Shown in pieces: positions 1-9,841 of a stretch of DNA of 26,070 bases. The notes under the pieces were generated by a model that saw only the letters and a list, made by a program, of their open reading frames with translations, was not told the origin of the DNA and ran no database searches. Position numbers and translations under genes: made by a program. The DNA lies in IMG/VR virus record IMGVR_UViG_3300035189_000011, positions 1 through 26,070 of that record; one strand, 5' to 3'. Every line of letters begins with the position of its first letter. The first letter of the stretch is position 1. The DNA is from a virus.

Positions 1-64
1 TGGCGTTCCAGTTGTCGACCTGCTTTTGCAGCTGTGCAGCGGTAGGGCGTTTAGGTGCTGGCAT
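1..64 (-). CDS. Leftward early gene, 5' part only
   Basis: Twenty-one codons of a leftward gene are visible, starting at ATG 64-62 and running off the window. The peptide begins MPAPKRPTAAQLQKQ, basic and likely helical. The start is supported by a strong Shine-Dalgarno (GGAGGAA on the minus strand, bases 71-77) about seven bases upstream. It is the first gene after the long structured leader of the leftward promoter, so by position it is an early, repressor-controlled gene. The family is not recognised and too little is present to infer a function. Confidence 0.75.
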   Translation of the reverse strand, partial: MPAPKRPTAAQLQKQVDNWNA

Positions 65-615
65 TTCTGTTTCCTCCGTTGATTTCCAAAGCGCCCGGTC
101 TCCCAGGCGCTTCAGTAAATCTGTGGGCCCGGTCCCGCAACTGGCGTCAGACCGGGTTTACTGCATCAGCGGTGTGCCGGTGACCCGCTACTGATTGCAG
201 GCTCGACGGTCGTCTTCGGGGTGGCTACGGGGCTTCCTGTTCACCCGGCTCGATCAGCGTTGCCGGGTGGTCATAGGTCTTACAACATGCGACGTACAGC
301 CCCTAGGCGCCTGGTTAAGTAGGCACATCGCATGAGGTCCGGCGCTCCTCATAGCCGAGGCTCGGAGCGCTAATTCTGTTCGGTGAATCTCCCTTCATCC
401 GCTGGGATTCGCGGTGCGCACTGCTTGCCGGGTCGTTCTCGCGGTTCTGGCATGTCGCCATCGTCAGCCGTACAGGGTGTTCCCTGTCGTGGGCAGCCTT
501 TCGGGGCTGTCTGATCGCCGGTCGCCGGTAGAGGCAATGCGGTCTGTTGTTTGTTGCGCTGATTGTTAAAGAGCAGCGGGTCTTGTTAGGCCCTGGCGCC
601 AGTTGCTGCGGCGAT
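65..615 (-). ncRNA. Long structured leader RNA of the leftward early operon
   Basis: About 550 nt without a credible gene on either strand lie between the leftward promoter and the first leftward start codon. The stretch holds many perfect or nearly perfect inverted repeats: 89-95/106-112, 114-119/157-162 enclosing 128-134/150-156, 242-249/262-269, 342-348/364-370, 385-393/404-410 (one bulge), 472-477/482-487 and 494-498/505-509. A boxA-type antitermination element lies near its predicted 5' end (561-576). These repeats are read directly; that the stretch is transcribed as one leader, and that it folds, is inference from promoter position. It could act as an antitermination (nut/put-like) leader, a regulatory leader or a separate small RNA. 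The hairpin at 89-112 has only a short U run, so it would be a weak terminator. Confidence 0.6.
561..576 (-). promoter_or_regulatory. rRNA-type boxA antitermination element
   Basis: Read on the minus strand the bases are CTGCTCTTTAACAATC. This matches the boxA of bacterial rRNA operon leaders and spacers (TGCTCTTTAACAAT) and resembles lambdoid boxA elements. It lies about 40 nt downstream of the predicted leftward start point, the expected place for NusB/NusE recruitment. I do not see a lambda-like boxB with a GNRA-like loop right after it, so the element may work as in rRNA operons or with a different partner. Confidence 0.7.
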
Positions 616-621
616 GAGGTA

Positions 622-650
622 AATATGTACTAATGGTTCACAGTGGTCAA
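622..650 (-). promoter_or_regulatory. Leftward early promoter (PL-like)
   Basis: On the minus strand TTGACC (650-645) and CATATT (627-622) are separated by 17 bp, a good sigma-70 match. Predicted start is near 615. The core is overlapped by two copies of the 13-bp operator also found at the repressor/cro promoters, so it should be silent in a lysogen. Confidence 0.7.
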
Positions 651-2087: not shown

Positions 2088-2837
2088 CTACAAATCCCCG
2101 CCGCGCCAGATAACCCGGCCCAAGATACGGTGCTCATAGATCTCGCCGTCAGGCAGGCGCTCGTCGGCGTATTTGATTTTGTCCGGATTGTCGCTACGGA
2201 TGATCCAGCCATCGAAGTCGGATTTCACCAGGCGCTTGACGATCGTCCCTCGGTCCTGGCTCTCAATGACAAATATGTGCCCATCTGCCGGCTCGATGCG
2301 AGACTCGTCAACGAGCAGCACATCATGATGGGTGATTGTCGGCCACATGCTGTCTCCATCGGCGTAGATGATCTTCAGGTTCTTCGGCTTCGCGCCTTTA
2401 ATGCGCAACCATTCACGCTTGAAAGCCAGGCCGCCGCGCAGCGACACATGCGGGTTGTCGTGGCCTGAACCGGCGGCGGCATAAGCGTAGTACTGCGGGA
2501 TTATGACGTGGGTGTCTTCATTGACGTCCGCTTTCTCCAGCGCCCCGGTCAGCTCTGGAGTCGCGGCCGGTGGCTGAGGGGCGGCAGGAGCATCCTGAAC
2601 ATCCCCACGACCGTACTCCAGCCACTCCACACGAACCCTCAGCGCCGTAGCCACCGCGAGCATCTTGGCGCCGCCTGGCATTGATTCGCCGTTCAGCCAT
2701 TTACTGCTGGCCTTTGGCGTCACTCCAGCCATTTTTGCCAGGCGAGCGCCAGCGCCCCATTCCTGGATTTCATTCAGCGCAAGCGCCTGCTTGAGCCTCG
2801 CGACAAAAGCATTTCGTATTTCTTCGATATGAACCAT
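2088..2837 (-). CDS. Phage repressor (C2/CI type, S24 autoprotease)
   Basis: A 249-aa repressor that should hold the prophage silent. An N-terminal XRE-like helix-turn-helix lies around residues 10-70 (ARLAKMAGVTPKASSKWLNG). An Ala/Pro-rich linker follows, then a LexA/S24 C-terminal domain with cleavage pair A122-G123 (YAYAAAGSG), nucleophile S163 (DGDSMWP) and general-base K201 (TIVKRL). This is the RecA-stimulated self-cleavage design, implying SOS induction. The chosen start at 2837 has no Shine-Dalgarno but lies downstream of a plausible promoter (-10 TATTAT at 2886-2881). The upstream in-frame ATG at 2882 overlaps that -10 and is rejected. A 13-bp operator covers the chosen start codon, suggesting autorepression. 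Two accessory genes follow in the same operon. Confidence 0.9.
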   Translation of the reverse strand: MVHIEEIRNAFVARLKQALALNEIQEWGAGARLAKMAGVTPKASSKWLNGESMPGGAKMLAVATALRVRVEWLEYGRGDVQDAPAAPQPPAATPELTGALEKADVNEDTHVIIPQYYAYAAAGSGHDNPHVSLRGGLAFKREWLRIKGAKPKNLKIIYADGDSMWPTITHHDVLLVDESRIEPADGHIFVIESQDRGTIVKRLVKSDFDGWIIRSDNPDKIKYADERLPDGEIYEHRILGRVIWRGGDL

Positions 2838-2921: not shown

Positions 2922-3161
2922 ATGCGGCCGCTCAAAAAATCGATTGATGATGCTGGCGGCGTTCCTGCCGTGGCCCTGGCCTGCGGCAAGACTCCGAGAG
3001 CTATTTACAAGTGGCTTGTTGCCGACGCTTTGCCGCGCACCGAGTACACGGGCGAAACCCAATACGCCAAGAAAATTTCAGAACTGGCTGCCTCAAAGGG
3101 CAATCCGTTCGATCCCGCCTGGCTGCTTGCCGAGGCGCACCCAAGAAAATCAGCCGCTTAA
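2922..3161 (+). CDS. Cro-like regulator (YdaS/Cro HTH)
   Basis: A 79-aa helix-turn-helix protein starting MRPLKKSIDDAGG. The HTH covers about residues 8-35 (GGVPAVALACGKTPRAIYKW), as in Cro/YdaS-type phage proteins. The start is set by GGAGG at 2913-2917, five bases before the ATG. It is the first gene rightward of the divergent operator region, opposite the repressor, which is the standard place for Cro. It should bind the same 13-bp operators and favour lytic growth. Confidence 0.85.
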   Translation: MRPLKKSIDDAGGVPAVALACGKTPRAIYKWLVADALPRTEYTGETQYAKKISELAASKGNPFDPAWLLAEAHPRKSAA

Positions 3162-8781: not shown

Positions 8782-9167
8782 GGGCTGCCACCAAAGCCGC
8801 GCTCCCGGTCCCGGCCGAGCATGAAGAGCAGAAGGCGCTGATCAAGTGGTTCGCCATGCAGTACCCAAAGATCGGTAACAGGCTGGTGGCGGTGCCCAAC
8901 GGCGGCGACCGCGATCCACGGGTAGGCAAGAAGCTCAAGGCCGAGGGTGTCCGTTCTGGCTTTCCCGATTTGATGCTGCTAATCCCGCGCGGCGCCTTCA
9001 TGGGCCTGATCATCGAAATGAAGCGGGTGAAGGGCAGCAAGCTTGAGCCAGAGCAGGCCGAATGGCTCGACTGGCTGAATACGCAAGGTTTCATGGCAGT
9101 GATTTGTAAAGGCGCCCAGGCGGCGCGCGACACTATTAAGTCTTACCTTGGGGAGGGTGCACTATGA
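8778..9167 (+). CDS. VRR-NUC domain nuclease
   Basis: A 129-aa protein made of one VRR-NUC (PD-D/EXK) domain. Motifs: AVPNGGDRDPRVGKKLKAEG near 38-57, GFPDLMLLIP with D64, and IIEMKR with E80 and K82. Stand-alone phage VRR-NUC proteins are nucleases, some acting on Holliday junctions. It follows the YbcO-like gene with a 4-nt overlap, forming a recombination/repair pair in place of the usual Rus/RusA resolvase. Confidence 0.9.
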   Translation: MRAATKAALPVPAEHEEQKALIKWFAMQYPKIGNRLVAVPNGGDRDPRVGKKLKAEGVRSGFPDLMLLIPRGAFMGLIIEMKRVKGSKLEPEQAEWLDWLNTQGFMAVICKGAQAARDTIKSYLGEGAL

Positions 9168-9841
9168 AACTCATCGGAGCACGTCAGGCTTGGGCTGACA
9201 GCCAGCACGAATCGAACATGTCGATCAGCGCGGTAGCGGCGGAGAGCGCCCAGACCGAAAAGCAGGTCAAGCGATCCCGGTCAGCGCGCCGGGAGGTGAT
9301 CTTTGCCGCCCAGGGTGAAGACAAAGAAGCGCGCATCCGCGTGGTGCGTAAGCGCATCAATATCGCCGAGACGCGCCGCACACCCATCGGGCGCTCGACA
9401 GCTCGCGCCGCGCACCTGATGACCATGGGCAAGATCCAGGCTGCAATCGAAACGCTTCCCTTCCAGGTCCAGCAGTTCGGTCACTACCTGTATCACCCCT
9501 GCATGACAGCCATTCACCTGCTCAACGCTGAAAAGCTGATCTGGGCTGACACGGATTTCTCTGCGCTCACAGACGCCAAGGCGGAGAAGGCGCATTGCCT
9601 GATCACCATCGCCCTTCAGTCCTATAAGTCCGAGGTGCACGGCGGTGCTGAGTACGGCCCGGCCCGTGTCGCCGACGGCATGAAGAAGATCTACGGCATC
9701 AACATCGACCCAGGTAACTGGGATCGGGATTGGTTGAGCATTTGGAACATCATCCGTGACGCCATTGAAGAAGTGGATATTCAGGCGCAACAGCCTGTCT
9801 GGCAGGTGATTCACGCGGAAAGAGAGGAAGATGCGGCATAA
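9164..9841 (+). CDS. Probable late antiterminator (Q-like)
   Basis: A 225-aa basic protein, last gene of the early operon. It begins MKLIGARQAWADSQHESN and has an Arg/Lys-rich N-terminal third (EKQVKRSRSARREV; EARIRVVRKRIN). I do not see the lambda Q zinc-finger cysteines and the family is not certain. The position is telling: a consensus-like promoter immediately followed by a terminator lies just downstream, as with lambda Q and pR'-tR', and the late region contains many intrinsic terminators that need antitermination. Function by context. Confidence 0.6.
   Translation: MKLIGARQAWADSQHESNMSISAVAAESAQTEKQVKRSRSARREVIFAAQGEDKEARIRVVRKRINIAETRRTPIGRSTARAAHLMTMGKIQAAIETLPFQVQQFGHYLYHPCMTAIHLLNAEKLIWADTDFSALTDAKAEKAHCLITIALQSYKSEVHGGAEYGPARVADGMKKIYGINIDPGNWDRDWLSIWNIIRDAIEEVDIQAQQPVWQVIHAEREEDAA

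Follow-up and report, generated by a model that had tools for sequence, protein, structure and literature searches.

How do temperate phages of Pseudomonas that have no obvious N gene transcribe their early left operon? We found no description of this process, and the locus analyzed here provides a concrete, widespread candidate for the element involved. It lies in a 26,070-base virus record, the whole of which is referred to below as the window, with a lambda-like gene layout around the repressor region. The original prediction had singled out a long gene-free stretch behind a repressor-controlled leftward promoter, rich in stem-loops and carrying an rRNA-type boxA, as a possible antitermination leader, either RNA-directed like HK022 put or borrowed from rRNA operons. 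Our analysis confirms that this observation is real and extends it beyond what was claimed: the stretch belongs to a modular family of structured phage leader RNAs and forms the 5' leader of the early left (pL) transcript.

An untranslated, structured leader behind the left promoter

The sole sigma-70-like promoter match within positions 1-1000 of the window is TTGACC-17-CATATT at 650-622 on the minus strand. We identify it as pL because the operator-like repeat ATGTACTNNNNGTWC is found both here and on the pR side, with four exact copies at 625-639 and 651-665 (pL) and at 2862-2876 and 2886-2900 (pR). Within the window, the repeat is confined to these two sites, with 0.2 copies expected by chance; a fifth match, with one mismatch, is the same pR site on the other strand. 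Sizeable reading frames within 615-64 on the minus strand have no ribosome-binding site, and indels interrupt them in homologues; this rules out a coding leader and bears out the description of the stretch as gene-free (Table 1).

The leader folds more strongly than shuffled sequences (z -4.1). It contains nine inverted repeats, compared with the seven or more stem-loops noted in the original prediction, but the conserved structure is not a mere list of the stems visible in the single sequence, as the closing helix of module 1 pairs positions 541-534 with 424-417. The boxA noted about 40 nt from the start is present in exact form at 575-564, which places it 41 nt from the predicted start. A lambda-type boxB, not obvious to the original prediction, is absent: the A/C-rich linker behind boxA contains no conserved hairpin.

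Table 1. Coordinates of the leader, its parts and the surrounding control region in the window
Feature	Position	Strand	Remarks
CI-type repressor (HTH and peptidase S24)	2088..2834	-	
Cro-like repressor of the right operon	2922..3161	+	
Two intrinsic terminators	773-751 and 708-687	-	close the cI-side operon that precedes pL
Repressor-operator-like repeats over pL	625-639, 651-665	+, -	same repeat at the pR side
Left promoter pL, TTGACC-17-CATATT	622..650	-	predicted transcript start about 615
Leader (untranslated, structured)	about 615 to 64	-	best boundaries; behind the repressor-operated promoter
boxA TGCTCTTTAACA	564..575	-	exact gamma-proteobacterial boxA, 41 nt from predicted start
A/C-rich linker, boxA to module 1	545..563	-	mostly unpaired
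Module 1, covarying seven-helix RNA	415..544	-	
Module 1 helices P1; P1b; P6	541-534/424-417; 528-525/431-428; 520-518/444-442		
Module 1 helices P2; P3; P4; P5	517-511/467-462; 509-505/498-494; 487-482/477-472; 460-456/452-448		
Module 2, second conserved structured RNA	77..412	-	core about 412-125, then terminal hairpin 112-89
First left-operon gene, start	1..63	-	ATG 63-61, preceded by GGAGG; truncated at the window edge

In lambda, the interval between CI and pL is occupied by rexAB. On the minus strand of the window, this interval encodes a PIN-domain protein (794-1321) adjoining a 246-aa protein of unknown function (1324-2064), possibly an exclusion or toxin-antitoxin pair, whereas LESphi3 (L250) carries BrnT and a small regulator there. 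At the other end, many leaders terminate just before the first gene in a recurring hairpin with the flanks TTCACTGA...TTGGRA, exemplified by positions 89-119 (-) of the window.

A host-type boxA is the constant part of the leader

The sequence TGCTCTTTAACA, which is exact and unique in the window as a boxA, lies near the transcript start and fits the gamma-proteobacterial consensus GYTCTTTAANA (PMC5725501). Because one match with up to two mismatches is expected by chance in 26 kb, the weight of the element rests on its conservation. Of 187 distinct loci, 178 have a boxA or a near variant no more than 165 nt upstream of module 1, and 135 have the exact GCTCTTTAACA, the boxA of the host 16S leader. 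When loci were gathered with a model that excludes boxA, a perfect consensus boxA was found upstream of module 1 in 64 of the 71 distinct new loci, with only 65 such matches in total over 463 kb, both strands included. Columns unused for anchoring are conserved as well (G in 155 of 159 loci, A in 146, A in 151, C in 138 and A in 151), whereas the 5' flank is for the most part close to random. Directly 5' of boxA, a hairpin occurs in 79 of 159 loci versus about 36 after shuffling, and is thus enriched, not universal. Overall, boxA is far more constant than any single folded module.

The window and six of the eight isolated phages each have a single boxA consensus in the genome, always in the leader; the other two phages, phi2 and AUS531phi, have the variant GCTCTTTCACA. 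No boxA was detected at the right operon of the window or the eight isolated phages, none of which carries the consensus more than once. Within a single complete Pseudomonas chromosome, the 11-mer GCTCTTTAACA occupies six rRNA-type positions and occurs once more in the phage element; Rfam confirmed two of the six as 16S leaders and a third as a 16S-23S spacer. The host rRNA leader reads CCGCTCTTTAACAACT. The phage boxA equals that of the host 16S leader, which fits the suggestion that the element was borrowed from rRNA operons.

Covariation defines the fold of module 1

The fold of module 1 was derived from an alignment of 45 distinct sequences (A3, the training set). A closing helix joins CGCATTGC to GCAATGCG, some 110 nt further on, and encloses an inner stack (CCGG/CCGG, CGG/CCG and CGATCAG/CTGATCG) and hairpins. 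Across A3, 94.8% of the cells pair and both sides have changed in 19 of the 37 pairs, an extent of covariation reached by 0 of 500 shuffles; sliding the partners against each other destroys the pairing. Applied to A3, RNAalifold recovers the majority of the inner helices and misses the long-range closing helix, which is supported by the pair counts and is also seen when the window core is folded as a single sequence. The pattern by which the set was gathered accounts for part of the invariance of GCCTCT and GGCGACCGGCGA in A3, whereas the covariation does not arise by construction.

The covariance model (R1) built on this fold recovers PseuP_222, which is outside the training set, at an E-value of 4e-19. 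For 26 loci that the training set did not include, the share of pairing cells is 95.6% and both sides have changed in 23 of 37 pairs, in an alignment that was fitted to the model and hence leans towards it. The closing helix has been independently rewritten as CGCGCAGC/GCTGCGCG, CGCTAAGC/GCTTAGCG and CATGCAGC/GCTGCATG. Covariation among homologues is strong in both module 1 and module 2, which decisively disposes of the refuting outcome named in the original prediction, namely that homologues would not covary. There is one strong module 1 copy per phage genome, and the right operon (pR) has neither a second copy nor a boxA.

Several loci depart from the standard arrangement. In L007, L028, L020, L229 and similar loci, a hairpin block of ~65 nt (GCGCCATGAACGACTACCCGGC...) is located between boxA and module 1. 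At L232:600-1900 (-), an HNH-endonuclease-like gene lies inside the module 1 leader, preceded by a full divergent module 1 and followed by the 3' portion of another copy, suggesting that the gene was inserted into the structured RNA. A very divergent module 1 (E about 1e-9) is found in L233 and L234, with the boxA GCTCTTTAAAA lying upstream at a distance of more than 100 nt; one genome (G049) has four copies on separate contigs.

Module 2, a pseudoknot and mosaic leaders

Behind module 1, the region from 412 to about 77 of the window is conserved in about 30 loci. In the alignment of this module 2, with the structure from RNAalifold, 38 of 78 pairs have changed on both sides, a level reached by 0 of 500 shuffles. 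The module 2 pattern matches in at least 119 contigs. Among the matches listed, about 101 are distinct real cases, of which 41 have module 1 in front, 24 have no boxA within 700 nt and 36 have a boxA followed directly by something else, although a few of these 36 (e.g., L318) contain a divergent module 1 missed by the strict pattern.

The commonest alternative among the matches listed is a pseudoknot directly after boxA (type B), in which the helix CTCGC/GCGAG crosses a seven-pair helix with 7 of 7 pairs changed on both sides (18 sequences). Its carriers (alignment A6) include L256, L263, L265, L089 and L108. Two more types of module that look conserved lie in the interval from boxA to module 2, type C (L255, L281, L288 and L349) and type D (L251 and L340). 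Since the modules differ behind a constant boxA, the leaders are mosaics of exchangeable folded modules.

None of the Rfam 15 covariance models matches the leader at E-values up to 5, so that no known Rfam RNA accounts for it. Searches of the open-access literature on boxA and antitermination RNAs of Pseudomonas phages turned up no description of the element, although publication without an Rfam entry is possible. Modules 1, 2 and B look like uncatalogued RNA families, the Rfam scan having covered modules 1 and 2; they would add covarying folds, one of them a pseudoknot, to the known repertoire.

Distribution and genomic context

Module 1 is present in more than 180 distinct phage or prophage loci, and the pattern for its most conserved stretch matches at least 120 IMG/VR contigs and 68 stretches in the GTDB species set, mostly from Pseudomonas. 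Among the sampled genomes, module 1 was found in 32 of 249 from Pseudomonas (about 13%), in 1 of 369 at the class level (the Pseudomonas centre genome itself) and in 2 of 392 at the order level, counts that are lower bounds because stricter filters apply with many genomes. The class- and order-level figures count against a wide taxonomic spread. Pattern matches in genome contigs from outside Pseudomonas mostly lack a covariance model match, and BLAST retrieved the leader only from Pseudomonas phages, apart from unassigned faecal phage contigs. Isolated phages with the element include LESphi3 and phiPSA1; carriage by plasmids was considered and yielded no match. A divergent, lower-GC module 1 with boxA at L141:4-126 (-) resides on a contig binned as a Bacteroidales MAG, which is probably a misbinned phage contig.

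The location of the leader is strictly maintained. In annotated phages, it lies between the repressor region and the left operon, SC_8 being unannotated there. In 107 of 156 distinct loci, a sigma-70-like promoter with at least 9 of 12 matching positions precedes boxA by no more than 110 nt, compared with 1 of 156 for the control region, and the median distance from the -10 element to boxA in homologous loci is 49 nt. A same-strand intrinsic terminator 60-300 nt upstream of boxA was detected in 79 of 156 loci, versus 5 of 156 after shuffling and 22 of 156 on the opposite strand. Between the leader and the first gene, terminators are not enriched (10 of 155 versus 21 of 155 on the opposite strand).

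The genes behind the leader are highly variable: the first genes of 154 loci, chosen by a simple ribosome-binding-site rule that leaves some of them doubtful, fall into 92 clusters, the largest with 11 members, and therefore no conserved N-like partner adjoins the leader. Examples include sigma-factor-like, tellurite-resistance-like, CsrA-like and HNH proteins. No N-like protein was recognized among ten first-gene examples scanned against PHROG. In UFJF_PfDIW6, a hypothetical protein annotated antisense across the leader (L002:4030-4545 (-)) is probably spurious; similar protein calls overlap the element in phi2, TC7 and BUCT566.

Relation to known antitermination systems

The leader resembles the rRNA leaders (boxB-boxA-boxC, with NusA/B/E/G, SuhB and S4) in its boxA, which is identical to that of the host 16S leader. 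Neither has an adjoining phage N protein; the boxB-like hairpin directly 5' of boxA is enriched among the phage loci but not universal. The phage leader, however, drives an early phage operon, and its boxA is followed by folded modules rather than by boxC and the rRNA leader-trailer helix. With lambda nutL/N it has its place in common, an early left leader behind a repressor-controlled pL with boxA near the start; it differs in that boxA is followed not by boxB but by an A/C-rich linker of about 20-35 nt, in that no conserved N-like gene adjoins it and in that there is no second site at pR.

HK022 has putL and putR, whereas the Pseudomonas phages carry one copy only. Put RNA works directly on RNA polymerase, at the beta' zinc-binding domain, and needs no Nus factors. 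Both systems place a folded RNA in an early phage leader, seemingly without a phage protein. In the Pseudomonas phage leaders, boxA is the constant part, whereas the paper on the solved structure of put, a 73-nt two-stem RNA, does not mention boxA (PMC9378689). HK022 gave no match to the module 1 covariance model, which rules out a relative of put, and the likeness to put is a functional analogy at most.

The EAR/epsC RNA, which works with LoaP in Bacillales, is likewise a large structured cis RNA, and is linked to processive antitermination (PMC2864571, PMC12691694); its hosts and genes are different, no boxA appears in the EAR description found, and its covariance model (RF01735) does not match the leader. 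In boxA-led CRISPR arrays, boxA precedes a long untranslated transcript (PMC7862264), a boxA-first layout shared with the phage leaders, although the arrays consist of repeats and spacers, unlike the folded phage leaders.

Function of the leader

We consider it probable that the stretch is a cis-acting antitermination leader that replaces nutL and N and recruits host Nus factors, a reading that leaves the contribution of the fold unspecified. On rRNA, boxA and Nus factors suppress Rho termination (PMC4807359, PMC5725501): NusB-S10 bind boxA and, together with NusA, NusG and SuhB, give rise to a Rho-resistant polymerase (PMC4807359, PMC5725501, PMC10250234). BoxA also raises expression along a long CRISPR array, favoring the completion of long untranslated transcripts (PMC7862264). 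In the phages, the order seen is pL, boxA about 40 nt into the transcript, at least one conserved folded module and, with no terminator in between, the left-operon genes that vary among phages. As boxA emerges from RNA polymerase, host NusB-NusE(S10), NusA and NusG would assemble as they do on rRNA leaders, probably joined by SuhB, and the complex would make the polymerase Rho-resistant, such that leader and operon could be transcribed without a phage N protein. More speculatively, the folded module next to boxA might help in cis by touching the Nus complex or the polymerase. It counts against this reading that, by a simple scan, intrinsic terminators are not clearly in excess in the left operons, so that the termination to be overcome would have to be Rho-dependent.

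That no terminator precedes the first gene and that the leader sits strictly at pL speak for a cis leader, whereas the absence of boxA or a module at pR speaks against a full lambda-like or HK022-like scheme. The original prediction is correct in its anatomy, a structured boxA leader on a repressor-controlled pL, and its mechanism is partly supported. Tentatively, Pseudomonas temperate phages might even possess a new class of RNA-directed processive antitermination, in which a host-type boxA and exchangeable modules replace N and which is mosaic by module exchange. The leader family as such would carry boxA control over to early phage operons beyond the lambda N system, and it makes N-independent antitermination testable by point mutations.

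Other readings assign the fold a different role. BoxA could serve the leader itself, the folded RNA being a non-coding RNA with a separate job (trans-acting, anti-defence or scaffold) processed from the leader, and boxA protecting this long untranslated transcript from Rho as in rRNA and CRISPR arrays. The length, the elaborate exchangeable modules including a pseudoknot, the single copy per phage with none at pR, and the precedent of boxA preceding long non-coding RNAs elsewhere (PMC7862264) favor such a role; yet the RNA is always at pL, is always the operon's own leader in annotated phages and is not separated from the first gene by a terminator, and we regard this reading, the main rival, as rather unlikely. 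A stand-alone RNA with its own terminator is rejected, there being no terminator enrichment before the first gene. It is improbable that antitermination is effected by RNA alone, as in HK022 (PMC9378689), with the folded module binding RNA polymerase and boxA being auxiliary: a conserved folded RNA does occur immediately after an early phage promoter with no adjoining phage protein partner, but it has no similarity to HK022, is present in a single copy per phage and is far less constant in any one of its modules than boxA. As for a 5'-UTR that governs mRNA stability or first-gene translation, perhaps by serving as an RsmA/CsrA target, the hairpins do end just before the ribosome-binding site (89-112) and CsrA-like first genes occur in a few phages. 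The RNA, however, stays constant while the first genes differ in nearly every phage, and GGA motifs are not enriched (11 versus 12.2 expected), which rules out an RsmA/CsrA sponge and leaves 5'-UTR control very improbable.

Elsewhere in the window, the protein encoded at 9164-9841 (+) belongs to phrog_3373 and weakly matches Q-like antitermination proteins (E 1.3e-4), making it a candidate late antiterminator.
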